Positions 8,534 to 31,815 are shown, counted from the first letter of the stretch. The stretch: DNA of 42,780 nucleotides from a virus (IMGVR_UViG_3300024949_000020:1-42780), one strand, 5' to 3'. Notes: a model not told the origin generated them from the letters alone. Translations and numbers: made by a program.

Positions 8534-8860
8534 TCAGCCCACCATCACCTTGGGCCGCGCAATGCCCGGCTCGCAGTCGATCGTGTACTCCACCAGGTCG
8601 ACGCCCAGGCGGTTCAGCTCGCAGTGCCAGCGGTGGCCGTCCGGTGCCTTCTCGATCTCGATCAGCTTGCGGTCGCCCAGGTAGTCCAGCTCGCGGCGGA
8701 TCTCCTGCTCGGTCGCGTCCGGGTAGTTGGCCTGGATCACGCTCAGCAGCACCGTCGTGGGCGCGCCGGCCGGCCGGCTGACGTTCAGCGCCACCAGCAG
8801 ATACCAGCGGATCTGTTCGCGCCGCAGCCGCTGCATGGTGAGGATCACTTCGGTGGTCAT
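8534..8860 (-). CDS. Winged-helix phage protein (Mu gp26 position)
   Basis: A 108-aa protein with an apparent winged helix: LRREQIRWYLLVALN, then a helix around PDATEQEIRRELDYLGDRKLIEI and a hairpin with GHRWHCELNRLG. It resembles the small conserved proteins found between gp25- and gp27-like genes in Mu relatives. It overlaps the upstream gene as ATGA. The exact role is unknown. Confidence 0.72.
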   Translation of the reverse strand: MTTEVILTMQRLRREQIRWYLLVALNVSRPAGAPTTVLLSVIQANYPDATEQEIRRELDYLGDRKLIEIEKAPDGHRWHCELNRLGVDLVEYTIDCEPGIARPKVMVG

Positions 8861-9237: not shown

Positions 9238-9488
9238 TTGCCGTATCCCCTCTCCAGGCGGGCCTGGCAGTCCACACACAGGCGCACGCCCGGCAGCAGC
9301 CGGCGGCGGTCATCGGGGATAGGCTCGCCGCAATGGGAGCCCTCGCATTCGCTGGCGCTCAGCACGCGCCACTGCGCAGCGTCGGCCATGCGGCCCACCT
9401 GTACGGCCGCCTTCAGGCGCTGCGCTTCGAGGGCCTGTCGCAGCAGCATCTCGGCGCGCTCCTGGCCACGGTCGAAGATGTCCGTCAT
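9234..9488 (-). CDS. TraR/DksA-type C4 zinc finger protein
   Basis: An 84-aa protein with GEPIPDDRR...LCVDCQARLE, the hallmark of the phage TraR/DksA zinc-finger family, and cysteines 48, 53, 71 and 74. Family members bind RNA polymerase through its secondary channel and adjust transcription initiation. The first pair is spaced C-x4-C, with His52 next to the second Cys, where the family normally has C-x2-C. It overlaps both neighbours by 4 bases. Confidence 0.8.
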   Translation of the reverse strand: MTDIFDRGQERAEMLLRQALEAQRLKAAVQVGRMADAAQWRVLSASECEGSHCGEPIPDDRRRLLPGVRLCVDCQARLERGYGK

Positions 9489-9748
9489 GCGCCCGGCCCG
9501 CCTGGGTCGGCCGCACTGCGCTGTGCCAGCAATGCCGACTTCTCGGCGCTGCCCCGGCTGCTGCCGAACTCGTACTGGAAGGCATCACGCACGCAGGTGC
9601 CGAAGATGCCGGCGATCGTGCTCACGATGCCCACCACTTCGCCCGGCACGTCCTTGCGGTACAGGGCCAGCACCGCCAGGCAGGCGATCAGGCCCAACAC
9701 GGCGCCGATCACCAGCACATTGGCCCGCGTGTCGCTGTGCGGCGCCAT
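9485..9748 (-). CDS. Two-helix membrane protein, holin candidate
   Basis: An 87-aa protein with two membrane helices (about 11-30 and 37-52) joined by a short charged turn, and a polar C-terminal tail. Size, topology and position before the DksA-like gene fit a small phage holin, which makes the timed lesion in the inner membrane. No sequence motif proves this. The ATG at 9748 is chosen over an upstream in-frame start because the extra residues look like out-of-frame GC-rich sequence. Confidence 0.62.
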   Translation of the reverse strand: MAPHSDTRANVLVIGAVLGLIACLAVLALYRKDVPGEVVGIVSTIAGIFGTCVRDAFQYEFGSSRGSAEKSALLAQRSAADPGGPGA

Positions 9749-9750
9749 GC

Positions 9751-10056
9751 TCAGCCTCGGCCCGCGCGGCGAGCGCGCAGCTGGTTGCGGCGCTTGCGCG
9801 CCATGCGCTGGCCCTGGCGCACCGTGTAGCCCGGCCGCGGGTGGCGCCACCAGACTTGGCCGTGGTAGCCGCCGCTGATCGCCTGCGCTGCCGCCGCGAC
9901 GCCGCTCAGGCCAGCCAGCCCGCGGACTGCCTTGGTGTGCTGGGTGCTGTCGCGCACCGTGGTCACGTCCCGGTCGGCGACGGTGGTGATCGGCATCGCA
10001 CCCAACCCCAGGGTCAGGGCGGCGGCTGCGAGAACGTGGCTTCGGGTGCGCTGCAT
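9751..10056 (-). CDS. Small exported protein with basic tail
   Basis: A 101-aa protein with a clear signal-type N-terminus (MQRTRSHVLAAAALTLGLGA), a Gly/Ala-rich middle and a strongly basic C-terminus (RMARKRRNQLRARRAGRG). It is the first gene of the left late arm after the terminator at 10103..10131, and it follows the dyad at 10092..10105. It is not a recognisable lysozyme or spanin. Function unknown. Confidence 0.6.
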   Translation of the reverse strand: MQRTRSHVLAAAALTLGLGAMPITTVADRDVTTVRDSTQHTKAVRGLAGLSGVAAAAQAISGGYHGQVWWRHPRPGYTVRQGQRMARKRRNQLRARRAGRG

Positions 10057-10091
10057 GCTGGCATGGTGGCCAGCCGTGGGCGCGGCGTCAT

Positions 10092-10105
10092 TTCGCGGGT
10101 GCGAA
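10092..10105. promoter_or_regulatory. Dyad TTCGC-N4-GCGAA at the start of the left late arm
   Basis: A 14-bp inverted repeat, TTCGC-GGGT-GCGAA, lies just past the leftward terminator and before the first left-arm late gene. The same dyad with a different 4-base centre occurs at 22780..22793 before the right late arm. The half-site GCGAA also occurs in the central operator. It is probably a binding site for a phage regulator. Confidence 0.5.
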
Positions 10106-10131
10106 AACACAAAGGCCCACCGAGGTGGGCC
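10103..10131 (-). terminator. Rho-independent terminator ending the leftward early operon
   Basis: On the minus strand, a GC-rich stem (10114..10121 with 10124..10131) is followed by TTTGTGTTTT. It lies downstream of the gene at 10156..10725 and before the late gene ending at 9751, so it separates the early and late leftward units. Confidence 0.75.
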
Positions 10132-10155
10132 CACTGTTGGGGGATGGCCCGCCGG

Positions 10156-10725
10156 TCAGTTGCGGTCCCAGGCCACCACCTTCTCGTTCATCACCACCAG
10201 GTGCAGCCGGCCGCTGCGGTAGACCGACGCCACACCGTCCTTGCGGTTGACCTGGCTCACCAGCACCACGTCGCCGACGCAGCTGCGCACGCGGCTCAGG
10301 TCCATGCCCACGGTCGGCCGCGCATAGTCGCTGCCGCACACCTTGCGGCGCACCTTGTCCTGGCGCAGCGCCTCGCGCTCGTCCGCCGCTGCCTGGGCGT
10401 TGATCTTGTCGGTCTGAACCTTGCGCTGCGTGTCCCAGTAGCGGTCGGCCTCGATGGTGGCCGATGCGGCGCTCGATGTCGCCGCCGCTGCGGCCCGCTG
10501 CTGCGCCTGCAGCTCGGCCTCGGAACGCATGGCCCGGTCGGTGGCCGCCTGGCCGCGCGCCTGGTCGGCGGCATCGCGCTCGGCCGCCCGCCGCAGGCCA
10601 TCGCACACCGCGGGCTTAATCTCCGACCCATTGGCCCAGCGGCAGGCGGCCAGGTCTTCGCCCTTGGCCGCCGACAGCAGGGGCAACAGGGCGAGCAGCG
10701 AGCAGGCGGCGATTCGGGTCAGCAT
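10156..10725 (-). CDS. Exported coiled-coil protein with BamE-like C-terminus
   Basis: A 189-aa protein with a signal peptide (residues 1-20), an Ala/Gln-rich helical section (about 45-125) and a C-terminal part (about 133-189) in which VGMDLSRVRSCVGD is followed by short strands. That pattern resembles the BamE/SmpA-type fold. Four cysteines could pair in the periplasm. It follows the Mor-like activator and precedes the terminator, in the zone where Mu keeps lysis genes, but no lysozyme motif is present. Function unknown. Confidence 0.65.
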   Translation of the reverse strand: MLTRIAACSLLALLPLLSAAKGEDLAACRWANGSEIKPAVCDGLRRAAERDAADQARGQAATDRAMRSEAELQAQQRAAAAATSSAASATIEADRYWDTQRKVQTDKINAQAAADEREALRQDKVRRKVCGSDYARPTVGMDLSRVRSCVGDVVLVSQVNRKDGVASVYRSGRLHLVVMNEKVVAWDRN

Positions 10726-10773
10726 GGTGGCGGTCTCCAGGGCCGAAGTCTATCGGGGTGCACAGCGCGGGAA

Positions 10774-11187
10774 TCACCCCGGCTGTTGATGCGCGAGATC
10801 GCCGAACAGGTCAGGCTGCTGTCGCAGGCGGATCTCGTGGCGCGCCACCTGCAGCACCCGGTAGATCTGGCTCAGGCTCATGCCGTAGCGGCGCGCCAGG
10901 GCGATGTGGTTGCCGCCCGTGAAGGCCTCCCAGATCTCCCACATGCGCCGCCGTTGCCGCATCGTCATGCCCTTGGCGATGTAGATCGGCGTGCCGCCGA
11001 AGTTGGCCCGCACATGCTCGGTCACCGTCTCGGCGACCGCACCGGCCAGGTCGGTCTCGATGCCGATCGCGCGCAGCTCGCGCTCCATCACGTCGGCGAT
11101 CTCGCGCAGCACCTCCGGGTATTCCGGGTCTGCATGGATGGGCACGCGGGCCGTGGCCTGCATGGACGACTTCAATTCTGAGGACAT
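10774..11187 (-). CDS. Mor-type transcription activator
   Basis: A 137-aa protein of the Mor/C family that activates middle or late promoters in Mu. GGTPIYIAKG (64-73) is the conserved dimer-linker segment, and NHIALARRYGMSLSQIYRVL (93-112) is the helix-turn-helix. The start at 11187 has AAGGGA upstream. It is the only activator of this type in the window, so it presumably has to switch on both late arms. It overlaps the end of the previous gene by 16 bases. Confidence 0.9.
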   Translation of the reverse strand: MSSELKSSMQATARVPIHADPEYPEVLREIADVMERELRAIGIETDLAGAVAETVTEHVRANFGGTPIYIAKGMTMRQRRRMWEIWEAFTGGNHIALARRYGMSLSQIYRVLQVARHEIRLRQQPDLFGDLAHQQPG

Positions 11188-11696
11188 GACAAGGTTCCCT
11201 TGGACGTATCGATCGCACCAGTCGTGTCTGCGCCAACTTGGTGCGAAGGGTTGACAGTGCCGCAAGGTGCCGCCAACGGGCAACCCCCTGGGATAGGCGT
11301 GTCAGCTCTTACAGCCCGCGATCGCGGGATTGCCACCACCACCTGGTCGGCCAGCCGCCGGCGCAGCGCGGCCAGCGCGGCGCGCCGGTCCTGCGTCATC
11401 TCCGGCCGCGGCGCCGGCAGCTGGTCCAGCTGCGGCCGGGGCGGCAGGTGGTCCAGCAGCTGCTTCGGCGCCGGCCAGTGGTCGACCTGGCGCGACAGGC
11501 TGAAGAAGCCCGCCGTCAACCGGCTGCTGTCGAGCGCTTCGTCCCACGCCACCGGGCTGCGCCACAGCACCTCGATCCAGCCGGTGGTGGTCAGCGGGGC
11601 CACCTCGGCCGCCGGAAACCCGCGCAGGTTCAGGCTGTACAGCAGCTGCACACCCTCCACGATTGCGTTGTGAAACCAGGCCGGGATCGGGTTCAT
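11172..11696 (-). CDS. Hypothetical phage early protein
   Basis: A 174-aa protein whose N-terminal half (WFHNAIVEGVQLLYSLNLRGFP...HWPAPKQLLDHLPPRP) matches a pattern common in early regions of Mu-like phages: a helix, then a Trp-Pro and Pro-Pro-Arg motif. The C-terminal third is low-complexity and overlaps the Mor gene. The start overlaps the upstream stop as ATGA. Function unknown. Confidence 0.72.
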   Translation of the reverse strand: MNPIPAWFHNAIVEGVQLLYSLNLRGFPAAEVAPLTTTGWIEVLWRSPVAWDEALDSSRLTAGFFSLSRQVDHWPAPKQLLDHLPPRPQLDQLPAPRPEMTQDRRAALAALRRRLADQVVVAIPRSRAVRADTPIPGGCPLAAPCGTVNPSHQVGADTTGAIDTSKGTLSCPQN

Positions 11697-12163
11697 CGCT
11701 TCATGCCCTCCAGTGCCATCAGCGCGCCGCCCGCCTTGCTGCGTGCCACCACAGGGGTGACAGGCTGCATCTGTGCAGCGCCGTCCTGCACGGGCGCTGT
11801 CGTCACCACCCCACGCGCCGCAGCACTTTCAATGCAGCGCCTGAGGTAGTTGTGGTTGCCCAGCGGCTTCCATCCCGGCGCGGCGCGCTTGTCGTCCAGC
11901 GTGCGGGCCGCCTCGGCCAGGCCCACCACCAGCACGTCCACCGGCACCACATCCAGCGCCAGCACCTCGCGCATCAGGCGCAGGGCCCGGCCCCAGCCCA
12001 GCTGCTGCCTGGCCGGCCGGAAGTAGGCCAGGTAGTGCAGCAGCAGCCGGCTCAGCTCAGGCTGCATGCCGGCCAGCATCACCATCACCTCGCGGCCGGC
12101 TTCGTGCTGCAGCGCGGCCTCCAGCGGGAACGCGGCGTGGCACACGGGGCAGTTGAGCTGCAT
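11693..12163 (-). CDS. Hypothetical phage protein with N-terminal CxxCH
   Basis: A 156-aa protein that starts MQLNCPVCHAAFPLEAAL; the C-x2-C-H set may bind zinc, and the rest is mainly helical. GWGRALRLMREVLAL and GNHNYLRRCIESA resemble proteins seen between gp16- and Mor-like genes in Mu relatives. The start at 12163 shares a base with the upstream stop (TGATG) and has GAGGAG as ribosome site. Function unknown. Confidence 0.7.
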   Translation of the reverse strand: MQLNCPVCHAAFPLEAALQHEAGREVMVMLAGMQPELSRLLLHYLAYFRPARQQLGWGRALRLMREVLALDVVPVDVLVVGLAEAARTLDDKRAAPGWKPLGNHNYLRRCIESAAARGVVTTAPVQDGAAQMQPVTPVVARSKAGGALMALEGMKR

Positions 12164-12438
12164 CACGCTGGCTCCTCGGAGTCGTCGTTCCGGTCCTTGT
12201 CCAGCTGCAGCGCCGTGCGGCTGATCAGCTTGCACTCCACGCGCAAGCGCTGGCCGTTGCGGTAGACATAGCCCAGCTTGCGGTCGTAGGCCTCGTCGGT
12301 GGTGATGGCCTTGGCCAGCAGCGGCAACATCTTGTAGGCCACCGCTGCAGGCAGCACCAGGTGCTCCATGCCGATCGTGATGGCGGCCAGGTCGCCCGCC
12401 GGTGCGGCAGGTCGGGTGTCGGTGTTGGCACGGCTCAT
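12163..12438 (-). CDS. Hypothetical phage protein
   Basis: A 91-aa protein with a central helix (LVLPAAVAYKMLPLLAKAI) and a C-terminal stretch, YVYRNGQRLRVECKLISR, that looks like two strands. The tail is acidic. It overlaps the GemA-like gene's end by 4 bases, so it is part of the same early operon. I do not recognise a family. Confidence 0.68.
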   Translation of the reverse strand: MSRANTDTRPAAPAGDLAAITIGMEHLVLPAAVAYKMLPLLAKAITTDEAYDRKLGYVYRNGQRLRVECKLISRTALQLDKDRNDDSEEPA

Positions 12439-12944
12439 TCGAGACCACCTTTCATGTCAGCCTGTGCTTGGCGACGGGATGCCGCCGCCAGCGCGGCAGC
12501 AGGGTCGCGCTTGATGCGGCGCGCCTGGTCGTACTCCAGCCCGGCCACGATGCGCCACAGCTGGTCGGCGTCGCAGAACTCCAGGCGGTCGACCTTGAAC
12601 ATGTGCCGCGCCATGCCGTGGGCATAGGCCCAGGGCCGGCCGGCGTCGGCCAGGTGCGCCTCGATCTTGTCCATCAGCGCCTGGCGGTCCAGCGCCGGCC
12701 GCCGCGGCTTTCCGGCGTGGTCGCCCGGCCGGCGGGCGCTGTCCTTGAAGCCGCTGGCCTTCAGGTGCGCCAGCACCCTGGCGCGGCCGGCGTGGTCCAG
12801 ATCCTTGGCGCTCTTGACGCGGGCCTGGGCCCACAGCATGGCGCGGTAGGTGTCGTCGTCCAGGCCCAGCTGGACCTTGGCGATGTGGATCTGCGCCAGC
12901 GCGTTGTTGCGCGGCTGGGCGGGGCGTGCGGCGGGGCGGGTCAT
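12435..12944 (-). CDS. GemA-like regulatory protein (Mu gp16, DUF1018)
   Basis: A 169-aa protein of the gp16/GemA family. IHIAKVQLGLDDDTYRAMLW (19-38) is the family's start, and WAYAHGMARHMFKVDRLEF is the conserved C-terminal block. In Mu, GemA influences host gene expression and DNA topology. The ATG at 12944 is preceded by AAAGGAG, a strong ribosome site; a much longer in-frame version is not supported. It is an early gene between Gam and Mor, as in Mu. Confidence 0.9.
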   Translation of the reverse strand: MTRPAARPAQPRNNALAQIHIAKVQLGLDDDTYRAMLWAQARVKSAKDLDHAGRARVLAHLKASGFKDSARRPGDHAGKPRRPALDRQALMDKIEAHLADAGRPWAYAHGMARHMFKVDRLEFCDADQLWRIVAGLEYDQARRIKRDPAAALAAASRRQAQADMKGGLE

Positions 12945-13189
12945 GCGGCGCTCCTTTGGCTGATCTGCCAGACCGACATGCAGGGCCCCAGGCCCTTGGC
13001 CGGCAGCTGGCGCGCGGCCAGCATGCCGACGGGCAGCGCCAGCGCGATGGTCAGCTTGTCGACCAGGCGGCCCACCGCCGTCTCGGCGCTGCTGGTGCTG
13101 CTGGCTCGCTGGCCGGCCACCGCCTGGGTGGTGTAGGCCCCGCCCTGGCCGTTCACCTTGATGTTGAGGGGGAATTGAAGGGGTTTCAT
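12941..13189 (-). CDS. Hypothetical phage early protein
   Basis: An 82-aa protein with a beta-like N-terminus (MKPLQFPLNIKVNGQGGAY) and a moderately hydrophobic section, LTIALALPVGMLAARQLPA, too weak to call a membrane helix. It overlaps both neighbours by 4 bases. Not recognised. Confidence 0.65.
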   Translation of the reverse strand: MKPLQFPLNIKVNGQGGAYTTQAVAGQRASSTSSAETAVGRLVDKLTIALALPVGMLAARQLPAKGLGPCMSVWQISQRSAA

Positions 13190-13446
13190 TTCGCCATCTC
13201 GTAGTGTTCGCAGACGCCACCAGCGGCCACCTTGAAGCCGCCCACCTTGCAGTTGAAGACCTCGCGCTCGTTCCAGCTGCCGGTGTCCAGCAGCGTGTGG
13301 CCGCGGAACAGGCAGCCCTTGCAGTTGTCGCTGCGCTGCTGGGGGCCGGCATAGCCCATCAGCTGGCGGCGGCCCTCATTGCCCTTGACGGAAAACGCCG
13401 GCTCGGCCAGCTCCAGCCGGGCCTTGAGTTCATCTGCGCGGCTCAT
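13186..13446 (-). CDS. Small Cys-rich phage protein
   Basis: An 86-aa protein with Cys42-x2-Cys45, Cys66, Cys79 and His81, in the order CKGC...FNCKVGGF...GVCEHY. This pattern recurs in small phage proteins and could hold zinc or an iron-sulphur cluster. I chose the ATG at 13446, which overlaps the upstream stop as ATGA, over a start at 13512 inside the upstream gene. Function unknown. Confidence 0.65.
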   Translation of the reverse strand: MSRADELKARLELAEPAFSVKGNEGRRQLMGYAGPQQRSDNCKGCLFRGHTLLDTGSWNEREVFNCKVGGFKVAAGGVCEHYEMAK

Positions 13447-13844
13447 AGCTGGCCCGCCTTCCGCAGCAGCGCGATGTGCTGCATGTGCTCGGGCACGAAG
13501 CGCTTCGGGCACTTGGTGATCACCCAGCCGTCCAGCAGATCGCAGGCGTCCTTCAGCGCGCCCCGCATGGCGGTGATGCGCTCGGCCAGGTCCAGCGTGG
13601 CAGCGGTGCTGCGCGCCGGCAGGTCGGCCCAGGCCACCACCTTGTCATCGTCCAGCGGCTCGGCGCACACGTCGCGCCACTGCGGGCCATCGTGGTCCAG
13701 CGTGAGAAAGCCCTCGGCGCTGGTGCCATCGGCCAAGAACAGCAGCACGTTGGTCTCAGGGTCAGGCAGGCCCACGGTCACCGGGGTCAGGCTCAGCTGC
13801 ACGGCCGCCGGCCAGGGGCTGCCGAGGGTGTTGTCCTGTTGCAT
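13443..13844 (-). CDS. Hypothetical phage protein (DUF551-like region)
   Basis: A 133-aa protein. Residues 20-80 (VGLPDPETNVLLFL...GPQWRDV...KVVAWADLPA) resemble the DUF551 pattern of phage proteins, in which a V-L-x-F strand is followed by a W-A-x-LP end. The C-terminal half is helical. It belongs to the early operon next to Gam. Function unknown. Confidence 0.65.
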   Translation of the reverse strand: MQQDNTLGSPWPAAVQLSLTPVTVGLPDPETNVLLFLADGTSAEGFLTLDHDGPQWRDVCAEPLDDDKVVAWADLPARSTAATLDLAERITAMRGALKDACDLLDGWVITKCPKRFVPEHMQHIALLRKAGQL

Positions 13845-13853
13845 GGCGCCCCC

Positions 13854-14132
13854 TCAGTCCGTGGTGCCAGCGCGCGCCGGCTCGGTGCCCAGGCCGCCGG
13901 CCGGCGGGAACAGCAGCAGCTCGCTCGCGGCGAAGTCCGTGTGGATCAGCTGCTCGCGGATGACGTTGGTGGTGCCGGCGCTGAACACCTGCGCATTGCC
14001 GGCGTCGTCCACCAGCACCAGCTCGCCGCTGTTCAGCACACCTGCGCGCAGCGGGGTGCGCGCCGCGGGCTTGCCAGCCAAGGCAGCCAAGCCGGCCCAG
14101 GCGGACGCCAGAAAGGCAGCGGCGGCGCTCAT
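13854..14132 (-). CDS. Hypothetical phage protein
   Basis: A 92-aa protein with a hydrophobic Ala-rich N-terminus (FLASAWAGLAALAG), possibly a weak membrane anchor, then a beta-rich part (GVLNSGELVLVDDAGNAQVF). The start overlaps the Gam stop codon. Not recognised. Confidence 0.6.
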   Translation of the reverse strand: MSAAAAFLASAWAGLAALAGKPAARTPLRAGVLNSGELVLVDDAGNAQVFSAGTTNVIREQLIHTDFAASELLLFPPAGGLGTEPARAGTTD

Positions 14133-14707
14133 GCCACCACCGCCTCTTGCTCGAACGGCTCGATGGAGAAGTCCTCCAGACCCGTCACCACCTCGATACC
14201 GCTCACGCCGCCCAGCTTCTCGGCCTCGGCCAACAGCTCGGTGCGGTGGGCATCGTCGGCCGTGGCGCCCTTGGCGGCGCTGTGTGCGGCCAGGATGGCG
14301 TCCTTGTCCACCTCCTCCTTGGTGCGCAGGTAGCGGCCCAGGCCCAGGGCTTTCAGCGTCTTGATGACGGCCTCGGCCTTGGTGATCTTCACGCTGGGCG
14401 GTCGCTGCCGCCAGGTCACCATGCCCGTCAGCAGGTTGGCGAACTTCACCTTCCCGCCGTCGGTGATCTCCTGGCGGTTGGCCTCGCACCAGGCCTGCAC
14501 GCGGGCCTGCAGGCGCTTCACCTCGGCGCCCATGCGCTCCAGCTCGGGCTCATGGGTGGCGGTGATGGCGGCGATCGCGTCGTTCATCTCGGTGCAGCGG
14601 CGGGTGAAGGCGCGCTGCAGGTCGCCGATGGCGCGGATGTCGGCAGCGCACTCGCTGCGGGTCTGGGGCGCGCTGGCGGCAGCGGCCTTGAGCTTCTTGG
14701 TGGCCAT
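14129..14707 (-). CDS. gam: Host-nuclease inhibitor Gam
   Basis: A 192-aa Gam-family protein that binds DNA double-strand ends like Ku and shields them from exonucleases. The first 90 residues form a long helical hairpin (IGDLQRAFTRRCTEMNDAI...VKRLQARVQAWCEANR). Then come GGKVKFANLLTGMVTWRQRPPSVKI, the core beta segment, and a family-typical LKALGLGRYLRTKEEVDKDAIL. It lies in the early operon between B and GemA, as in Mu. Confidence 0.92.
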   Translation of the reverse strand: MATKKLKAAAASAPQTRSECAADIRAIGDLQRAFTRRCTEMNDAIAAITATHEPELERMGAEVKRLQARVQAWCEANRQEITDGGKVKFANLLTGMVTWRQRPPSVKITKAEAVIKTLKALGLGRYLRTKEEVDKDAILAAHSAAKGATADDAHRTELLAEAEKLGGVSGIEVVTGLEDFSIEPFEQEAVVA

Positions 14708-14742
14708 GTGGTGGGCTCTCCTGTGGGTGGGTGGTAGCGGGA

Positions 14743-15030
14743 TCAGTGCGCGCGCTTCGCCGCGGCGATGGCGGCGTCGGCATCGCCGCTGAAGGCGCCA
14801 GCGGCGGCATCGCGTGCAGCGCGCAGCTCGGCGGCGATGTGCTCCAGCACGTCGATCGAGCTGTCGTGGCAGCAGGGGTGCGCCAGCGCAATGGCCTTGG
14901 TCAGGCCCATCAGCGCGCCGAGCGCATCGCCGTGTCTCACGCCAGGTGCCAACAGCACGTCGGCCAGCTTCTTGGCCAGCACACGGGTGGGGTGGGACGG
15001 GTCATCGTTGATCATGGGCGGCAGGGACAT
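14743..15030 (-). CDS. Hypothetical phage early protein
   Basis: A 95-aa helical protein (LAKKLADVLLAPGVRHGDALGALMGLTKAIALAHPCC...HIAAELRAARDAAAGAF). Two adjacent cysteines lie in the middle. It sits 12 bases downstream of the winged-helix gene, in the early operon. No family recognised. Confidence 0.6.
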   Translation of the reverse strand: MSLPPMINDDPSHPTRVLAKKLADVLLAPGVRHGDALGALMGLTKAIALAHPCCHDSSIDVLEHIAAELRAARDAAAGAFSGDADAAIAAAKRAH

Positions 15031-15043
15031 GGGTGCCTTTCGG

Positions 15044-15403
15044 TCAGGTGGGCAGGTGAAGCTGGCCCAGCAGGTCGGCCAGCGGGATGCGGCGCAGCTG
15101 CGCCTCGATGTGCAGGCTGTGCATCGCCCGGCTGCGCAGGAAAGCGCAGCACTGCTGCAGCTCCTCGGCCGTCTCGGCGATGTAGTAGCCGGTTGATGGG
15201 GTGCCCGCGATGGCCATGCCCTCGGCCCGCGCCTCGCTGATCAGCGTGCGCAACATGCGCTCGCTGGTGCAGCAGCGGGCCGCCAGCGCCGTGGCGCCGA
15301 TGCCGTTGGCCGCGCCGGTATGGCTGCTGGCCAGCACCTGCAGCAACAGCGTCTTGGCGCGCTCGGGCGGCAGGTGCGGCATAGGAATCAGGATCGTGTC
15401 CAT
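15044..15403 (-). CDS. Winged-helix phage protein
   Basis: A 119-aa protein with a helix-turn-helix core: NGIGATALAARCCTSERMLRTLISEARAEGMAIAGTPSTGYYIAET (about 33-78). It is followed by a helical tail, EELQQCCAFLRSRAMHSL. This arrangement is common in phage early or replication regions and probably binds DNA. It could regulate early genes or assist replication by transposition. Exact role unknown. Confidence 0.7.
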   Translation of the reverse strand: MDTILIPMPHLPPERAKTLLLQVLASSHTGAANGIGATALAARCCTSERMLRTLISEARAEGMAIAGTPSTGYYIAETAEELQQCCAFLRSRAMHSLHIEAQLRRIPLADLLGQLHLPT

Positions 15404-15428
15404 CGGGGCTCCAGGGGTCAGGGCTGGG

Positions 15429-16190
15429 TCACGGTTGGCTCAGCGGCGGGCGGTGGGCCACCAGCGCTTCACCGCGGCGCGACGGCGCCGCCAGGTGCGC
15501 CTGGCCGCCGGCGCGGATGTACGGCCCGTGCGGGCGCAGCAGGCCGCCACCCGGGCATGGCGGCGCCGGCGGTACCGGCGGCTCGGCCGGGCGGTTCAGC
15601 AGGCCCTGCGGGTCTTGCACTGGCGCATGGCGGAAGTGGCGCGCCGGGTCGGCCAGCACGGTGCCGGTCAAGCCGGCCGGCTCGGGCGGCGCCACCAGCC
15701 GGCTGCCGGGCAGCGCCATCGGCCGCTGGGCCGCGCTGTGCCCGCGCAGGGCTGCCGCCTGGCGCTCCTGGGCTGTGCGCTCCCGGGCGGCCTGGCGGGC
15801 CTGAGCAGCGGCCTCCCGGCCTGCCGCGGCTGCGCTGGCCAGCGCAGCGCGCCGCTCCTCGGCGCGCTGCGCCTTGGCCCGGTCCTGCGCCTGGCGGATG
15901 CGCTTGATCTTCTGGGTCAGCTGCTCACGCTGCACCTGCAGCGACAGCAGGTCGGTGGCACCCGTCGGCACCCGCGCCGCGCCCTGGGTGCTCAGCTGCC
16001 AGCGCATGCGGCCGGAGCCGGTGCCAGGCAGCCGCTCCAGCCAGTCATGGCGCTCCATCTGCGCCAGCCGGCTCGCCACGTGCTTGGCATCGGTACCCAG
16101 CAGCGCCTGCACCTCGGCATTGCTCACCGACTTCTGCGCCAGCACCAGGCCCAGGATCTGGTCGCGCACGGAACCACGTTCGGCGCGCAT
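15429..16190 (-). CDS. Hypothetical protein with N-terminal winged helix
   Basis: A 253-aa protein. Residues 8-70 look like a winged helix (ILGLVLAQKSVSNAEVQALLGTDAKHVASRLAQMERHDWLERL), then a basic, Ala/Gln-rich coiled coil (about 85-150), then a Pro-rich disordered tail. A DNA-binding role in the early operon is likely. The start at 16190 is 3 bases from the previous stop codon. Confidence 0.68.
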   Translation of the reverse strand: MRAERGSVRDQILGLVLAQKSVSNAEVQALLGTDAKHVASRLAQMERHDWLERLPGTGSGRMRWQLSTQGAARVPTGATDLLSLQVQREQLTQKIKRIRQAQDRAKAQRAEERRAALASAAAAGREAAAQARQAARERTAQERQAAALRGHSAAQRPMALPGSRLVAPPEPAGLTGTVLADPARHFRHAPVQDPQGLLNRPAEPPVPPAPPCPGGGLLRPHGPYIRAGGQAHLAAPSRRGEALVAHRPPLSQP

Positions 16191-16193
16191 GGC

Positions 16194-16565
16194 TCAGGCC
16201 CTCGCCATGATGGCCAGCCAGCCGATCCATTGCTCCACCGCTGGCCAGCTGTTGCTGACGTCGATCACCAGGATCACGATGATCAGCACCAGCACGCTGC
16301 CCCACAGCCAGACGGGCTGGCCGATCTCGCGCGCGATGGTGTCGTCGATCACATGGTCCAGCTCGTCACGCGGCGGGTCCAGGGCCACCGGGCTGGGCTC
16401 GGGCCGGGCCCGGCGGGCCCGCCGGTCTTCCAGGTAGTCACCCCACAGCGTGGCGGTGACGCAGCGCACGCCGTTGACGAAGTCCACCGCCAGGGCCCAC
16501 ACGCACACCGCAATGGCGGCCACCGTGACGTACAGGCTGGGGTTCGTGGTGCGGATGATGGCCAT
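16194..16565 (-). CDS. Two-helix membrane protein
   Basis: A 123-aa protein with membrane helices at about 11-30 and 85-103, joined by a charged loop rich in Arg and Pro. It lies in the early operon and ends 3 bases before the next gene. An early-expressed membrane protein might alter the host envelope or exclude other phages, but nothing in the sequence proves this. Confidence 0.6.
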   Translation of the reverse strand: MAIIRTTNPSLYVTVAAIAVCVWALAVDFVNGVRCVTATLWGDYLEDRRARRARPEPSPVALDPPRDELDHVIDDTIAREIGQPVWLWGSVLVLIIVILVIDVSNSWPAVEQWIGWLAIMARA

Positions 16566-17159
16566 TCAAAGCTCCCGGTCGGTGGTTGAGGCGGAGGCGG
16601 CTGCCGGCTTGGCCCCGGCGCCGTTGAAGTGCGGGCACTGGCCCGCCCGGGCGAATCGCCCGCTGCCGCGGCAGGCATGCCAGGCCTGCGCGTGCTGCGG
16701 GTTGCCGATGCCGGTGCCGGCCTTGCCGGGCTGGCGCTCCTGCACGTCCTGGCACACGCGGGTGGACACCTCGCCCATCACCGGGCAGGCGCAGGTGGCG
16801 CCCATCAGCTCGCCCCGCACACGGCGCTCGATGCGCAACGTCTTGGCGGCATAGGTGCCGCTCAGCACCTGGCTGGCAGTGGTGTCGCTCACACCGATGC
16901 GGCGCGCCGCGGCGCCCTGGGTGGTGCGCTCGGCCTCGGCGCGCAGGGCACCCATCCAGTTGTCGGCGTCGCTCAGGCGCTCACGCACCCGCTGCGCCAG
17001 GTTGGCGGTATCGGCCATGTAGATCCCCTTCAGGGCCTGGTTGATGGTGGTGGCGCTGTAGCCCAGCACGGCCGCCGCGCGGCGCTGGCTGTGCTGGCGG
17101 CAGTAGTCGCCCAGCTGCTGCAGCCAGGCGGGTGCGGCCGCGGCGGTGGTCGTGCTCAT
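16566..17159 (-). CDS. Phage protein with two tandem helix-turn-helix repeats and Cys-rich tail
   Basis: A 197-aa protein. Two similar segments (about 24-62 and 79-118) share the pattern R-A-A-x-x-x-G-x-S-x-T-T-x-x-Q-x-L-x-G-x-Y followed by R-V-R-x-x-L, which reads as a duplicated helix-turn-helix. The C-terminal third has cysteines at 123, 125 and 136 plus a later C...C-P-H-F set, which could bind metal. It overlaps the upstream gene by 4 bases. Related proteins occur in early regions of Mu-like phages; the role is unknown. Confidence 0.7.
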   Translation of the reverse strand: MSTTTAAAAPAWLQQLGDYCRQHSQRRAAAVLGYSATTINQALKGIYMADTANLAQRVRERLSDADNWMGALRAEAERTTQGAAARRIGVSDTTASQVLSGTYAAKTLRIERRVRGELMGATCACPVMGEVSTRVCQDVQERQPGKAGTGIGNPQHAQAWHACRGSGRFARAGQCPHFNGAGAKPAAASASTTDREL

Positions 17160-17764
17160 GGCTGCCACCCCGGCGGGCACACGGCGTCGCAGACAGTCTT
17201 GTCGTGCTCGGCCAGCGCCCGGCCAGCGGCCGTCAGCGTTCCGGCCTGGTCGATCAGGCCCCGCATGCGCAAGCCGTTGAGCATGCTGCTCACCGCGCCG
17301 CAGTTGCCCGGGTCGCGCAGCGCGGCACTGGCCGGCCGGCCTTCCAGAATGCAAACCAGGGCGACGCGCTGGGTGTCGGTGGCCGGCCTTGGCGGTCGCG
17401 GGGCACCCGGTTCCCTGGTGGGCGTGATCACCACGCCGCCGTCGCCCCATGTGATGCCGGTGTTCGGGTCGTACACCGTCACCGACTCGCGCCGCATCAT
17501 GGGCGGCAGCGGGCCGGTGTTGCGCACCAGGGCCATCACGTTGCGCTCGCCCACCTGGCCAAGCCGGCCGCGCCGGGCCAGCACCACGTAGCCGCAGCGG
17601 GTCAGGCGGTTGACGTACTCACGGGCATAGCGGGTGCCCACGCCCACACTGGCGATCACCAGCTGGTCGACCGTCCAGCGGCGCAGGATGCGCATCGCCT
17701 GCCAGATCTGGTGCAGCTTGGGGTGCTGACCACGCACCTTCACCGTGCCATGCACTGCGCTCAT
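17156..17764 (-). CDS. Hypothetical phage early protein with winged helices
   Basis: A 202-aa protein with two possible winged helices, one near the start (MRILRRWTVDQLVIASVGVGTRYAREYVNRLTRCGYVVL) and one at the end (SSMLNGLRMRGLIDQAGTLTAAGRALAEH). A proline-rich linker joins them. It resembles early regulators of Mu-like phages, without a precise family name. It overlaps its neighbours as ATGA. Confidence 0.68.
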   Translation of the reverse strand: MSAVHGTVKVRGQHPKLHQIWQAMRILRRWTVDQLVIASVGVGTRYAREYVNRLTRCGYVVLARRGRLGQVGERNVMALVRNTGPLPPMMRRESVTVYDPNTGITWGDGGVVITPTREPGAPRPPRPATDTQRVALVCILEGRPASAALRDPGNCGAVSSMLNGLRMRGLIDQAGTLTAAGRALAEHDKTVCDAVCPPGWQP

Positions 17765-18084
17765 GCCCGGCCTCCGGTGGCTTTGCTGATGGCGTGGCCC
17801 GCGATCTCAGCCAGGGGCCGGATGTCGACGCTGGCCGCGTTCGGGTCCATGTCCATGATCGGCTTTGCCTTGATCGCCCCGGACTTCAGCCCCCGCAGCA
17901 CCAGGCGGGCGAGGTCCAGAAGCTCGGGCGCCGCGGCGATCAGCTGGGCATTGGCGACCGTTACCGCTGCAGGGTGCAGCACCGTGACGAATGCGACCTC
18001 GTGTGCCGCGTCATGCGTGCAGACCTGATTGAGCTGGATCGGGTTGACCACCCACGGCCCCGGGGTGTGTGCGGCGCCGCTCAT
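17761..18084 (-). CDS. Conserved small phage protein (HTPGPW...LIAAAPELL type)
   Basis: A 107-aa protein with the HTPGPW start and NAQLIAAAPELLDLARLVL, two motifs of a family very common in phages and prophages, whose function is unknown. The ATG at 18084 is chosen because the family begins just before HTPGPW; it overlaps the MuB-like stop codon. Confidence 0.78.
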   Translation of the reverse strand: MSGAAHTPGPWVVNPIQLNQVCTHDAAHEVAFVTVLHPAAVTVANAQLIAAAPELLDLARLVLRGLKSGAIKAKPIMDMDPNAASVDIRPLAEIAGHAISKATGGRA

Positions 18085-18797
18085 GCCCGGCCCCGCGGTG
18101 CGCCGCCCAGGTGCAGCTTGCGGCCGCCCCACTGCTCGGCGCTGATGCGCGCCCAGCCGTTGGCGCGGGCCAGCTGCTCGATGCGGGCCAGGCCCACCAC
18201 CAGCAGGCGCACGCTGCCGCCGCTCTCGGCATGCACGTGCTGCAGCAGCTCGTCGTCCAGCTGCACCTCGCAGGTGGCGCGGGCGATGTCGCGGGCGTCG
18301 TCCAGGTCCGACCGCAAAAACTCCACCCAGTGGCTGATGCGGCCGGCCAGCTGCGGGCGCGCCTTGAGGCGCTTCTCGATGCCCTCCATGCCGACCATCA
18401 CCACCGGCACGCCGCTCAGGTCGTGGATGTCGCGCAGCGTCTCGATCATCGCGGCGCTGCCCAGCAGGTAGTCGGCCTCGTCGACGAACAGCGGGCGGTT
18501 CTGCTCGGTGAGCTGGCTCACGATGTAGTCCACCATCGCCGCGTTGCGGCCCATCGGCGCCGCGCCCAGCTCGGCCAGGATGCGGGCCAGCATGGTGTTG
18601 GGCGTCCAGGTCTGCATGGCGCGCACGTACACGCCGCGGGTGCGGTTCACCAGCCAGGTGATGGCCGTGGTCTTGCCGGCGCCGGTGTAGCCGTGCACCA
18701 GGGCCATGCCCGGGATGCCGTAGCTGCGGCCCTCCAGTTCCTCGTAGGCCACCTGCAGGGCGGCCACACTCTTGGTGATAGCGAGTTGGTTGCGCAT
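18081..18797 (-). CDS. DNA transposition AAA+ ATPase (MuB-like)
   Basis: A 238-aa ATPase that picks target DNA and activates the transposase. GYTGAGKTT (36-44) is Walker A, LFVDEAD (103-109) is Walker B, and PVVMVGMEG (131-139) is the sensor-1 region. It is shorter than Mu B (about 312 aa) and appears to lack the N-terminal helix-turn-helix extension. It lies directly downstream of the transposase, 36 bases away, in the same operon. Confidence 0.93.
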   Translation of the reverse strand: MRNQLAITKSVAALQVAYEELEGRSYGIPGMALVHGYTGAGKTTAITWLVNRTRGVYVRAMQTWTPNTMLARILAELGAAPMGRNAAMVDYIVSQLTEQNRPLFVDEADYLLGSAAMIETLRDIHDLSGVPVVMVGMEGIEKRLKARPQLAGRISHWVEFLRSDLDDARDIARATCEVQLDDELLQHVHAESGGSVRLLVVGLARIEQLARANGWARISAEQWGGRKLHLGGAPRGRA

Positions 18798-18833
18798 ACC
18801 ATTCGTTCCTTCTTGATGGGCTTCAAGCCCGTT

Positions 18834-21170
18834 TCAAACCGCCCCGGTGCCGCCTGCAATGCGTCCCGGGGCGTCTTCTTGCGGGCCGGCCTGGTCGAGC
18901 TGCTGCCCCACCAGGTCGGCCATGCGGCGATAGCTGGCGGGCTGGGCCTGCCGGTAGGTGGCCAGGCAGTCGGCCTCCTCGGTGCTGAGCGGGCGCGTGC
19001 CGGCCTGGCGCAGCAGCCACGCCACGCGCTGGGCCAGGCTCTCGAACAGCGGCGTGGCCACGCCACCGCCGGCCATGCGCCGGGCCGCCAGCTCGTTGGG
19101 CGTGCCCGTGGGCACCTGTGTGGCCACGATGCGGGCCTGGGCTGCCTGCAGGGCCTGCAGCTGCTCGATGTCGGCCGTGCTGCGGCGCGGCGCCAGGGTC
19201 GCGGCAGCGGCATCGGCGGCAGCGGTCAGCCCGGGGCTGGTGTGGGCCACGGCCGGCCGGGCCGGCAGCGTGGCCAGCTTGCCGGCCTGGGCTGCCCGGC
19301 TGCGCAGGATCTCGTCCACCACCTGGTCGGTGCCCACCCGCTTTGCTGCGGCACGCAGCGCGCGGCGCTCGTCCTGCACGCGCTTGGTCTGGATGGCCTT
19401 GGCCTTCAGCGCGACCTCGTGGCGGTTCATGCCGGTGCGCTCGGGCGCTTCCGCCACGCAGATGAACTGCAGGTCATCGCCGCCGAAGACATACAGCCTG
19501 CCCAGGTCGTGCTGCATGGCGTCGTAGCGCACCTGCACCTCGCGGCCCACCCAGGCCTCCAGCTCGGGGGCGATGAAGTGGGTGTCATCCAGCCGGATGC
19601 CTTTCTTGGCCACCGTGCGCCGGCCGCCGTTGCCCGGCGCCTCGGCCAGCAGGATGTCCAGCGCATGCGCGTCGTCGATGGTGCGGCGCTCGGCCGCACC
19701 GCGGGCAGCGGCCTCGAAGGGGGTGATGCCGCCCAGCCCCTCGTGGGGGTTGTGCATGTAGACCGAGTCGATCCACTGGTCACAGAAGGCCTGCAGGTCG
19801 GCCGCCGACATGTGCACCCGCACCACCTCGTCGCGCTTCATCAGCCGGTCGGCAAAGCTCTGGCGCGCCTCGATCGCGCTGCGCTCGGCCACGTCGTGCC
19901 CGATGAAGCCGGGGCACAGCTCGACCAGGTCGCGCGTGAACGTGCCGAAAAAGCGCTCGATGTGCGGCTTGTGCCAGGGCTGGAACGGGGGGCACAGCTC
20001 CTGCATGTCCTCGCCCGCCGGGCTCAGCGCGCGGAAGACGCGGGCGATGTGGTGGCTGGTGTAGTCCGACCCGTTGTCGGTCTTCACCCGCTCGGGCACA
20101 CCCATGTCCAGCAGCATGCGGCGCACCAGGGCGGCCACCGCGGTGGCCTTGCTGGTCTTGCTGACCACCAGGCGCGGCCAGCGCGTGCCAACGTCGATGC
20201 CGCCGATCAGGCTGACGCGGCCGTCGTCCGTCATCAGGTCGGCCGGGCTGCTGTCCAGCTCCCACAGCTGGTTGAGGCGGTCGATGCCGTCGCTCTTGCT
20301 GCCGAACGCGACCATCTGGCGGTTCTTCCAGGCGTCGGGGTTGGCCAGGGCCAGCAGCGTGCCGGCGTTGGCCGTGCGCCACTGCTCCATCCAGCGCTCC
20401 AGGCTGCGCAGGCTGGGCAGCACCGCCCGCACCGGGCTTGATGCCGCGCCAAAGCGGGCTTGCAGGCCCTGCATCACCTGGGTGGCGCGGGCGTGCGGGT
20501 AGGTCACCAGCATCGCCTTGATGAAATCCTGCAAGGCGGGCTGGCTGTCCACCCGGCCCGAGCCGGCGCGGTTGCCGTAGCTGCCGGCCAGCGCGGTGAT
20601 GCCGTGCTTGCGCAGCTGGGCCTGCCAGCGCTCGATGCTGGTGTCGCTGGTGGTGGCCACCTCGGCGCGCACGCTGGCCGGCACCTCCAGGGCACCACTG
20701 TTGTATTGCAGGGTGAAGGCGATGCGCGCCTGGTGCGCCGGCAGGCCGCTGGCGCGGGTGAAGGTTTCGCAGGCGCGCACCACCGCCAGGCGGGCGTCCA
20801 TGCGGGCCTGGGCGGCGGGCGCCAGCTCGGCCGCCTGGCGCAGGCTGGTCTGCTGCCGGGCCTGGGCGGCGCGCTGTGCCAGCCCGCCCTGCAGCGCCAG
20901 GCGGGCGCCCTCAACCGTGCCGGCGGCGGCCACCTGGGCACGCGCCTGCTCGGGGTCCACCCCAGGCACCACCACCGCCGGCTGGCGCCAGGCCAGCGCG
21001 GCGCGGGTGTCGGCGGGCAGCTGGTCCACGCTGTACAGGCGCCGCACGCCGCCGCGGCCGGGCTGCTCCTCGAAGTGCCAGCCCTCGCGCTCGGCGCGGC
21101 GGATCACGGTCGACTTGGGCACACCCAGCACCTGGGCGATCTGTGCAGCGGTGGCGAGGGGGGCGGTCAT
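18834..21170 (-). CDS. Mu-type DDE transposase (MuA-like)
   Basis: A 778-aa transposase that joins phage ends to target DNA for integration and replicative transposition. The N-terminus (1-60) is a winged helix like the enhancer-binding domain of Mu A (AAQIAQVLGVPKSTVIRRAEREGW). The next 190 residues would bind the 22-bp end sites. The catalytic triad is Asp306 (ELDSSP), Asp365 (KTDNGSDY) and Glu405 (PHIERFFGTF). A C-terminal helical part would contact MuB. It overlaps the regulator gene by 4 bases as ATGA. It is slightly longer than Mu A (663 aa). Confidence 0.96.
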   Translation of the reverse strand: MTAPLATAAQIAQVLGVPKSTVIRRAEREGWHFEEQPGRGGVRRLYSVDQLPADTRAALAWRQPAVVVPGVDPEQARAQVAAAGTVEGARLALQGGLAQRAAQARQQTSLRQAAELAPAAQARMDARLAVVRACETFTRASGLPAHQARIAFTLQYNSGALEVPASVRAEVATTSDTSIERWQAQLRKHGITALAGSYGNRAGSGRVDSQPALQDFIKAMLVTYPHARATQVMQGLQARFGAASSPVRAVLPSLRSLERWMEQWRTANAGTLLALANPDAWKNRQMVAFGSKSDGIDRLNQLWELDSSPADLMTDDGRVSLIGGIDVGTRWPRLVVSKTSKATAVAALVRRMLLDMGVPERVKTDNGSDYTSHHIARVFRALSPAGEDMQELCPPFQPWHKPHIERFFGTFTRDLVELCPGFIGHDVAERSAIEARQSFADRLMKRDEVVRVHMSAADLQAFCDQWIDSVYMHNPHEGLGGITPFEAAARGAAERRTIDDAHALDILLAEAPGNGGRRTVAKKGIRLDDTHFIAPELEAWVGREVQVRYDAMQHDLGRLYVFGGDDLQFICVAEAPERTGMNRHEVALKAKAIQTKRVQDERRALRAAAKRVGTDQVVDEILRSRAAQAGKLATLPARPAVAHTSPGLTAAADAAAATLAPRRSTADIEQLQALQAAQARIVATQVPTGTPNELAARRMAGGGVATPLFESLAQRVAWLLRQAGTRPLSTEEADCLATYRQAQPASYRRMADLVGQQLDQAGPQEDAPGRIAGGTGAV

Positions 21171-21400
21171 GCCGGCTGCGCCTCGCTTGGCTCGGAGTGC
21201 TCGTCCAGCACGCCGTCCTTCATGCCCAGCAGTACAGCGGCACGGTGCGCCAGGCCACGGTGTCCCTTCGCTTTTTCGCTCAGCAGGTCGCGCACGGTCT
21301 GCTGCGGCAGCTGGTGCTGGCGAGCGAAGGCGGCGATCGATACGCCGCGGCGGCGTAGATCTTTCCTTACCTCATCCGGTGTACGAGTTTTCTTGGCCAC
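21167..21400 (-). CDS. Ner-like DNA-binding regulator
   Basis: A 77-aa helix-turn-helix protein: TPDEVRKDLRRRGVSIAAFARQHQLPQQTVRDLL, then KGHRGLAHRAAVLLGM. This matches the small Cro/Ner-type proteins encoded just before the transposase in Mu-like phages, which damp early transcription. The start is GTG at 21400 with AAGGAT 8 bases upstream. It is the first gene of the leftward early operon and diverges from the repressor. Confidence 0.85.
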   Translation of the reverse strand: MAKKTRTPDEVRKDLRRRGVSIAAFARQHQLPQQTVRDLLSEKAKGHRGLAHRAAVLLGMKDGVLDEHSEPSEAQPA

Positions 21401-21420
21401 GCGCTGTATCCTTGTTCCCT

Positions 21421-21462
21421 AAGCGAATCGAAGCGAATCAATGCAAGCGAACTTTAGCGAAT
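21421..21462. promoter_or_regulatory. Operator: four tandem AAGCGAAT-type half-sites
   Basis: Four direct copies start at 21421 (AAGCGAAT), 21431 (AAGCGAAT), 21445 (AAGCGAAC) and 21455 (TAGCGAAT), spaced 10, 14 and 10 bp, so they lie on nearly one face of the helix. They sit between the divergent Ner-like and repressor genes and cover the predicted leftward -10 element. This is the expected place for repressor and Ner binding and, in Mu, the transposition enhancer. Confidence 0.75.
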
Positions 21463-21479
21463 TAAATCCAGGGGATCAA
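21444..21479 (-). promoter_or_regulatory. Predicted leftward early promoter
   Basis: On the minus strand, TTGATC (21474..21479) and TAAAGT (21451..21456) are 17 bases apart and match sigma-70 boxes at 4 of 6 positions each. Transcription would start near 21444, inside the operator array, so repressor binding would block it. This is a prediction from sequence only. Confidence 0.45.
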
Positions 21480-22013
21480 GTGAAAACTTCACTCGCCGAC
21501 CGGATCCGCTGGGTGCTGGCGCACTTCGGTCTGCAGCAGCAACAGCTGGCTGAGGCAATGGGGGTCAAGCTCGACCGGGTGAAGACCCTGGTGCTCGGGC
21601 GAGCGAAGAAGCTCCGACAGGACGAGCTGGTGCAGCTACAGGCGAACTACGGGCTGTCGCGCGATTGGCTGGTGTCCGAGCAGGGCCAGCCGCTGCCCGG
21701 TGTGGCGTATCGGCCGGGGCCGGCCGGGCCGGCGCCCGCGCCGCACGCCGGGGCGCCGCCTGGGGACATGGCCCTGCTGGCCACGGAGAGCGCGCGTGGG
21801 AAATACCGGCCGGTGCCGACGCCAGGCGACGCCCAGCTGCTACAGCGGGTGGTGGATGCCACCGCTGCGGCCTTGGGTGCCCGCGGCCTGGTGCTGCCGC
21901 CCGAGCGGCGGCTGCGGCTGTACTGGGCCGTCTTCGAGCTCAGCCTGCCGGCTGGCGAGGTCAACCTGGCCGCGATCGGGCCGCTGTTGACGCTGGCCGA
22001 AGTGCCGAAGTGA
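21480..22013 (+). CDS. Phage repressor (c-like), helix-turn-helix
   Basis: A 177-aa protein with a lambda-type helix-turn-helix at its start (ADRIRWVLAHFGLQQQQLAEAMGVKLDRVKTLVLG...ELVQLQANYGLSRDWLVSEQG), a Pro/Ala-rich linker and a C-terminal helical domain. It should maintain lysogeny by binding the operator just upstream. I prefer the GTG at 21480, with AGGGGA 5 bases before it. The in-frame ATG at 21441 lies inside the operator repeats and would add 13 residues. No Ser-Lys protease dyad of the LexA/CI type is visible. Confidence 0.85.
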   Translation: MKTSLADRIRWVLAHFGLQQQQLAEAMGVKLDRVKTLVLGRAKKLRQDELVQLQANYGLSRDWLVSEQGQPLPGVAYRPGPAGPAPAPHAGAPPGDMALLATESARGKYRPVPTPGDAQLLQRVVDATAAALGARGLVLPPERRLRLYWAVFELSLPAGEVNLAAIGPLLTLAEVPK

Positions 22014-22072
22014 AAAACGCGCCCAGGCGAAGTTTTCGACCCAGGGGCGCCCCGTGGATATGCCGGGCGGTC

Positions 22073-22102
22073 GATTAAACGCGCCGCGGCCCGGTTAAAC
22101 GC
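22073..22102. promoter_or_regulatory. Two direct repeats GRTTAAACGC, 20 bp apart
   Basis: GATTAAACGC (22073..22082) and GGTTAAACGC (22093..22102) are spaced exactly 20 bp, two helical turns, in the gap between the repressor and the orphan gene. They may be an operator or part of a promoter for the downstream gene. Confidence 0.4.
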
Positions 22103-22139
22103 CCGGCCGGTGCCTTTGCGGGTGGGGTGGAGGGGCGGG

Positions 22140-22724
22140 ATGGGGTTGTTTTCATGGATCGAGGCAATTTTTGGGCGGCCGGCGCTGCCGGATGCGCAGG
22201 CTGAGCAGCTGCGCGACGAGCGGTCAGAACGGCAGGCGAGCGGCGTGATCGCACCGCGTGCCGACCTTGAGGTGGCGCGGCGGCTTGCCACGGCGGGCCA
22301 TGCGGCGGCAGCGCTGGAGGATCTACGTGCCGAGCTCGACCTGGTCGAAAAACTGACACGGCAGGAGTTTCCGCAATGCACCGCGGCCGAGCAACGCGAC
22401 TTGGCGGCCATGCGCCGCAGCGAGATCTACGGGGCATGCACGCTCGCTGTGCGCGGCAGCCCAGCCGAGGCGGTCTACGCACTGGTGGCGCATGCCTGGT
22501 GGATCTGCGGCCTGGTTGGCGCTGGCGATCGTGGGCAAGAGCTGCGACTGGCAAGGCGCCGTGAGCGATGGGGCGAGCAGACATCGGCCCTGCGGGATCT
22601 GCCCGCGCTTGTGGACATGGCCTTTGCCTTCAAGCCGCTGCGCACTGCCACGGACGTAGAGCAGCTCGCGGCACAGCTGTGGGCGCATGCGGGCTTGCCC
22701 GACCGGGATCGACTGCGCGCCTGA
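22140..22724 (+). CDS. Orphan gene downstream of the repressor
   Basis: A 194-aa mainly helical protein. It starts MGLFSWIEAIFGRP, an amphipathic segment that could touch the membrane, and contains two long helical blocks (RLATAGHAAAALEDLRAELDLVEKL and AVYALVAHAWWICGLVG). The ATG at 22140 has GGAGGGG upstream. It is co-directional with the repressor and closed by a terminator, so it is probably expressed in the lysogen. Genes in this place often protect the lysogen or block other phages, but no known domain is seen. It marks the right edge of the inferred inverted block. Confidence 0.7.
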   Translation: MGLFSWIEAIFGRPALPDAQAEQLRDERSERQASGVIAPRADLEVARRLATAGHAAAALEDLRAELDLVEKLTRQEFPQCTAAEQRDLAAMRRSEIYGACTLAVRGSPAEAVYALVAHAWWICGLVGAGDRGQELRLARRRERWGEQTSALRDLPALVDMAFAFKPLRTATDVEQLAAQLWAHAGLPDRDRLRA

Positions 22725-22750
22725 TGCCGGCCTAGAATGACGCGACACCC

Positions 22751-22781
22751 AGGCCCGCCACAGTGCGGGCCTTTCGCTTTT
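22751..22781 (+). terminator. Rho-independent terminator after the repressor unit
   Basis: A perfect 8-bp stem, AGGCCCGC (22751..22758) with GCGGGCCT (22765..22772), is followed by TTCGCTTTT. It separates the repressor/orphan transcript from the right late arm. Confidence 0.8.
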
Positions 22782-22793
22782 CGCAGCTGCGAA
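22780..22793. promoter_or_regulatory. Dyad TTCGC-N4-GCGAA at the start of the right late arm
   Basis: A perfect 14-bp palindrome, TTCGCAGCTGCGAA, lies directly after the terminator and 27 bases before the first late gene. It matches the dyad at 10092..10105 in half-sites, spacing and position relative to a terminator. Confidence 0.55.
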
Positions 22794-22820
22794 TAGAGCG
22801 CAACGTCGGCCCCACCCACA

Positions 22821-31779: not shown

Positions 31780-31815
31780 CGGCGCCTGCGTTTTAGCGCC
31801 TGCGAAAGGACATCG

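Follow-up and report, generated by a model that had tools for sequence, protein, structure and literature searches.

Paired inverted repeats as predicted Mor-family activator sites in the two late promoters of a Mu-like phage with divergent arms

Two spaced dyads, each standing ahead of one of the two late arms of a Mu-like transposable prophage, are very probably the binding sites of the phage's own Mor-family activator, and form part of a matched pair of late promoters predicted to give rise to leaderless late mRNAs. The prophage, whose arms are divergent, was analyzed as a virus record of 42,780 bases (hereafter, the window). The best reading of its sequence is that the two promoters would correspond to Plys and PI of Mu and be driven by a single activator, with one promoter serving the lysis/packaging arm and the other the protease/head/tail arm.

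Results

The leftward genes of the window encode Ner, the transposase, Gam and a Mor-family activator (10774-11283), followed by lysis, terminase, portal and F functions, and the rightward genes encode the repressor, an unknown protein, the protease, and head, tail sheath, tape measure and baseplate components. The first left late ORF (9751..10056, minus strand) encodes 101 aa with a hydrophobic N-terminal stretch and heads the DksA-like, terminase and portal genes; it opens with an ATG at 10056 that lacks a Shine-Dalgarno sequence, and its homologues in relatives have the same start position. The first right late gene (22830..23996, plus strand) encodes the head maturation protease (phrog_976, E=4.2e-111) and likewise lacks a Shine-Dalgarno sequence, with a GTG start at 22830 and another in-frame GTG at 22821. 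Directly past the last tail gene, TGATGCCTCAAAC occurs twice without mismatch, at a distance of 22 bp (42603-42637); the copies are probably transposase-binding repeats of the phage right end.

The first-pass annotation had described the same dyad at the start of both late arms. The left dyad, TTCGC-ACCC-GCGAA (10092..10105, minus strand), appears in the window as TTCGCGGGTGCGAA, the minus strand being TTCGCACCCGCGAA, and the right dyad, TTCGC-AGCT-GCGAA (22780..22793, plus strand), established by direct reading and alignment, appears as TTCGCAGCTGCGAA. Half-sites and spacing are the same, but the inner 4 bp differ (ACCC vs AGCT), so that the two elements are identical only in their arms. The transcribed strands read as had been claimed, GGGCCTTT-GTG-TTTTCGC-ACCC-GCGAA on the left and GGGCCTTT-CGC-TTTTCGC-AGCT-GCGAA on the right, and each dyad indeed lies a few bases past an intrinsic-terminator-like hairpin (ending at 10113 on the minus strand and at 22772 on the plus strand) and precedes the first late gene of its arm, the 101-aa ORF on the left and the head maturation protease on the right. 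Searching the entire window returned TTCGC-N4-GCGAA exactly twice, with no further exact copy; an order-3 Markov model of the window predicts 0.04 exact dyads per window, and two exact dyads occurred in 0 of 150 simulations under this model.

The hairpin scan places the intrinsic terminators at 10113..10132 (minus strand) and 22751..22772 (plus strand). The left one would end the early/middle transcript, halting the early operon before the lysis genes, and the right one would end the repressor-side transcript before the protease gene, barring both RNAs from the late genes. A sigma-70-like promoter, TCGACT-18-TAGAAT (22709-22738), is the sole scan match within 8000-24000; it lies at the end of the gene ahead of the right terminator, and its TAGAAT is also present in the Rubrivivax relative. 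We considered this stretch as an attenuated start, which would run into the right terminator, and set it aside.

Relatives were obtained via transposase, protease and small terminase; the transposase query alone gave no genome relatives, but an alignment query did. As proposed at first pass, related phages were searched for the dyad, which precedes the same two genes in Rubrivivax, Paucibacter and metagenomic relatives, with both sites present in Rubrivivax pictus (L028/L032), Paucibacter sp. KBW04 (L029/L031) and a metagenomic phage (L030). It also occurs at the left site of another locus (L091) and at the protease site of L151, L153 and the host genome G131. All ten arm positions are invariant over the 11 sites aligned, which come from at least six phages, with the inner spacer 45% identical and the following 23 bases 45% identical, although many of these sites are homologous and the counts overstate their independence. 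Over five left sites the arms are 100% conserved and the spacer about 50%. Among relatives, then, spacer, flanks and terminator stem drift while the dyad arms stay. A 12th exact-dyad site came from a search with a sequence model. Run against 399 host-family genomes, the sequence model of the module gave five matches of at least 45 bits (four of them in two known prophages and the fifth ahead of another protease gene), the next match scoring 26 bits; host-genome hits of 26 bits or less were taken as noise. In three whole host genomes, TTTTCGCN4GCGAA has a handful of matches, including the late sites of the Paucibacter and Rubrivivax prophages, and the other copies in these genomes have no -10 element at the right distance.

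Alignment of the sites suggests that the dyad belongs to a promoter of fixed layout, consisting of the dyad, an nnGACn -35 element, 17 bp, an nAnnnT -10 element, 6-7 nt and an ATG or GTG start codon. The distance from dyad to -10 hexamer is 23 nt, and A2 and T6 of the hexamer are invariant in 11/11 aligned sites. On the left, a degenerate -35 element, ATGACG (10086..10091, minus strand), lies 17 bp from the -10-like CACCAT (10063..10068, minus strand), and on the right TAGAGC (22794..22799, plus strand) lies 17 bp from the -10-like CACAGT (22817..22822, plus strand), both -10 elements having been assigned from the alignment. Outside the dyad, the best match to TTGACA is the first six bases after it, with a 17-bp spacer from the -10 hexamer; at this spacing 2-4 of 6 positions match in exact-dyad sites, and the scan values at 21-23 bp stem from bases of the dyad itself. 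Agreement of the -10 elements with TATAAT is poor, with C at position 1. In an offset control covering 222 distinct perfect TTnnn-N4-nnnAA dyads from all loci, the pattern of dyad, N bases, nAnnnT, 6/7 nt, RTG and ORF was found 12 times for N=23 and twice for N=24, while other offsets averaged 0.15. The dyad centre lies 30.5 bp before the predicted -10, that is, at -42.5 or -43.5 from the predicted start with a 6- or 7-nt discriminator, respectively. Both traits of Mor/C-type promoters are found: two 5-bp inverted repeats, in a perfect 5-4-5 arrangement at both sites, and a weak or missing -35 element with a recognizable -10.

The proposed reader of both dyads is the Mor-family activator encoded at 10774..11283 (minus strand; PF08765 Mor, E=6.6e-26), upstream of the left dyad. 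Its product matches phrog_532, late transcriptional activator (E=1.1e-28), and the solved structures of Mor (1rr7) and C (9l0x); the true start is likely an internal ATG near 11187. This is the one recognized Mor/C-family protein in the window, where a separate C was not found. In more distant phages both half-sites change together and the spacing is kept, with variants based on TTAAA (L124, L053) and TTAAC (L007) and imperfect versions in five other loci (L036, L015, L046, L157, L035). The Mor helix residue that follows a conserved Tyr (or Arg) varies with half-site position 4, being R/K in combination with G and Asn/Gln in combination with A; the same residue is R/K in the TTCGC phages and N in the TTAAA phages. 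We regard this correspondence, suggested by the sequences, as a lead: the perfect-dyad cases number four vs two, the remaining cases were located with the promoter architecture, as were several of the distant sites overall, and the B3-like phage PM105 is an exception, with Glu at the helix position and half-sites outside the R/K-G, N/Q-A rule. The L036 site (8008-8021; half-site TTTAC/TTAAC) belongs to a Pelomonas aquatica prophage remnant comprising the transposase and the protease arm; no Mor gene was detected in the stretch fetched, which has host genes in place of the left arm.

The first-pass annotation had proposed that one protein, be it repressor, Ner or Mor, could coordinate the two late operons. 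A single reader is probable, and the conservation of the dyad on both arms at the Mor distance to the -10 favors Mor, not the repressor or Ner, as the main one. That the dyads are instead silencing operators, at which a GCGAA-reading repressor or Ner would shut the late promoters in lysogens, is improbable, despite the observation, correctly made at first pass, that the repressor/Ner intergenic region has GCGAA as its core as well. There, (A/T)AGCGAA occurs at 21421, 21431, 21445 and 21455 (21421..21461, plus strand), four AAGCGAA-type direct repeats between ner and the repressor gene that overlap the repressor start codon, with a 10-14-10 start-to-start spacing kept in three relatives carrying the TTCGC dyad; they likely constitute a cooperative operator. 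This operator, however, is built of direct repeats and tolerates AAGTGAA, whereas the late sites are single inverted repeats with invariant arms at activator distance and lack the 10-14-10 direct-repeat arrangement. Moreover, weak promoters that require an activator need no added repressor, and L151 and L153 keep TTCGC late dyads with no GCGAA array between ner and repressor. The persistence of the dyad in these two loci, together with the covariation of half-site and Mor helix, is what favors Mor over repressor/Ner. In phages where GCGAA is common to both, the repressor may bind the late dyads secondarily.

It is still less probable that the dyads act as RNA elements, either as the second hairpin of a tandem terminator or as a leader signal for antitermination or processing. 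A terminator hairpin does precede 11 of the 12 exact-dyad sites, and the dyad is able to form a 5-bp stem; yet the arm sequence is invariant while the terminator stems vary in sequence, the loops are not of stable tetraloop types, the distance from dyad to -10 and start codon is fixed, and the TTAAA, TTAAC and Paucibacter right sites have the dyad without a strong terminator hairpin. Recent duplication or chance, with no regulatory role, would account for the approximately 20 matching bases over terminator tail and dyad in the window, but is scarcely credible and was rejected on conservation in relatives, both arms being conserved in three other phages with diverged flanks and exact dyads being so rarely expected (0.04 per window).

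The preferred reading, activation of both late promoters by Mor, is also consistent with the translation signals of the first late genes. Their Shine-Dalgarno pairing averages -2.5 kcal/mol, vs -7.1 for other phage genes and -4.1 at random positions, making them the weakest (p=8.6e-6, on sites that are not fully independent). On this weak pairing and the spacing from promoter to start codon, we predict that the late mRNAs of both arms probably begin at the start codon and are leaderless. Leaderlessness is not universal: in L007 the promoter is followed by a leader of about 50 nt that contains AGGA.

An inverted repeat, different in sequence from site to site, often encloses the -10 element in its loop and extends its 3' arm up to the start codon. 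In the window, the left repeat, GCTGGC-CACCAT-GCCAGC (10057..10074, minus strand), has the -10 in its loop and abuts the ATG at 10056, and a predicted hairpin on the right (22807..22830, plus strand), with the -10 in or beside its loop, extends to the start codon; TGCGGGC-CATTATA-GCCCGCA-TG provides a second example of such a hairpin. Late starts have a mean folding z of -1.29, whereas other gene starts average +0.36 (p=5e-6) and random positions -0.14. The hairpin stands out at some sites but is missing at L151, L153 and L036. Where present, it would hide the start codon in read-through RNA and leave it free in Mor-initiated RNA.

Taken together, these observations suggest a mechanism in which Mor, as the product of the early operon, would bind as a dimer between about -49 and -36, adjoining the degenerate -35 element, and recruit host RNA polymerase to the weak -10 (10063-10068 or 22817-22822). 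Transcription would start at or within 1-2 bases of the start codon (about 10056 and 22829-22830), resulting in leaderless late mRNAs. The sequence itself shows the conserved dyad, its fixed spacing, the -35/-10 pattern, the missing Shine-Dalgarno sequences and the Mor gene; Mor binding, the start sites, leaderless translation and a hairpin lock on read-through RNA are steps that we infer. A joint proposal, in which late operons are doubly locked (by the lack of a ribosome site and by the -10 hairpin at the start, so that only Mor-initiated mRNA is translated) and half-sites follow a Mor code of R/K-G and N/Q-A at position 4, is tentative and on balance doubtful.

A Mu-type set, with copies at the lysis block and at protease gene I, is present in the window. 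A possible third, degenerate site, TTAGC-GCCT-GCGAA (31793..31806, plus strand), lies past the tail sheath gene and is the candidate for a copy ahead of the tail (P) block; it scores a weak 14 bits under the model. The Rubrivivax prophage keeps this site, and Paucibacter retains half of it. Because its GCGAAAGGA coincides in part with the Shine-Dalgarno sequence of the next gene, a third late promoter at 31793 is a weak candidate. In Pseudomonas phage Fc22 (L167), where every late gene points the same way, the genome contains exactly three copies of TTCGCN4TCCAA (11774, 20166 and 25672), which stand ahead of the holin, protease and tape measure genes and are each followed by a -10 at 23-24 nt; these copies are predicted to be the unmarked late promoters of an isolated phage. 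The literature searched yielded no late-promoter mapping for D3112-like phages. At 13975 and 22396 of RcapMu (L164), the endolysin and protease genes are each preceded by one repeated terminator, CCCCCGGACCTGTGTCCGGGGG, and after it an element that contains TTCG. Both a Chromohalobacter phage and RcapMu carry repeated elements of their own ahead of the lysis and protease genes, to which no -10 could be fitted confidently.

Discussion

The notion, raised at first pass, that the pair of sites solves a problem made by the inversion of one arm is not supported, given that the co-directional Mu and Fc22 have separate late promoters too. These co-directional cases indicate that the pair is probably older than the divergent layout; a separate protease promoter was probably there before the inversion, rendering it tolerable. 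The presence of an activator-site copy on each arm suggests why the head-tail arm could invert.

The sequence rule described here locates late promoters of Mu-like phages outside enterobacteria, for which no mapped late sites were found in the papers searched. Half-site changes tied to the Mor recognition helix make activator specificity testable, and leaderless late mRNAs heading both late operons, if so, would be an unusual layout.

Parallels for single components exist in other phages. In T4 late genes such as lysozyme e, a hairpin in early read-through RNA hides the ribosome site. Similarly, a hairpin formed in read-through RNA alone would cover the start region in the window, and a late promoter inside the hairpin would free the start; unlike in T4, the late mRNA is predicted to be leaderless, and host polymerase with Mor would take the place of the T4-modified polymerase. 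The lambda cI mRNA made from PRM is leaderless, and in the window, too, the start codon is predicted to lie at the mRNA 5' end, here for the first genes of two late operons in a Mu-like phage.

The closest counterparts are in Mu, from which this kind of promoter is already known. The binding site of Mu Mor consists of two 5-bp inverted repeats, is centred at -43.5 and takes the place of a -35 element (PMC4390567, PMC4287176). Like Mu Pm, the late promoters of the window have two 5-bp inverted repeats upstream of the -10, with a predicted centre near -43, a PF08765 activator and a terminator-like hairpin, seen just upstream in the Mu sequence; they differ in their 4-bp spacer (6 in Mu), the half-site TTCGC, the control of late instead of middle genes and a predicted start at the start codon. 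In Mu, where late genes are co-directional, separate C-dependent promoters serve lys, I, P and mom (PMC4461284). The window resembles Plys and PI with C in the positions at the lysis block and protease gene I and in a dyad upstream of non-consensus -35 and -10 elements, but it has one Mor-family protein and no separate C that we could find, its arms are divergent and its first late genes lack Shine-Dalgarno sequences. As far as the papers searched show, what appears to be new relative to Mu is the half-site with its 4-bp spacer and the apparent use of one Mor-family activator for both arms, along with the spacing rule that locates late promoters in other Mu-like phages and the predicted leaderless layout.
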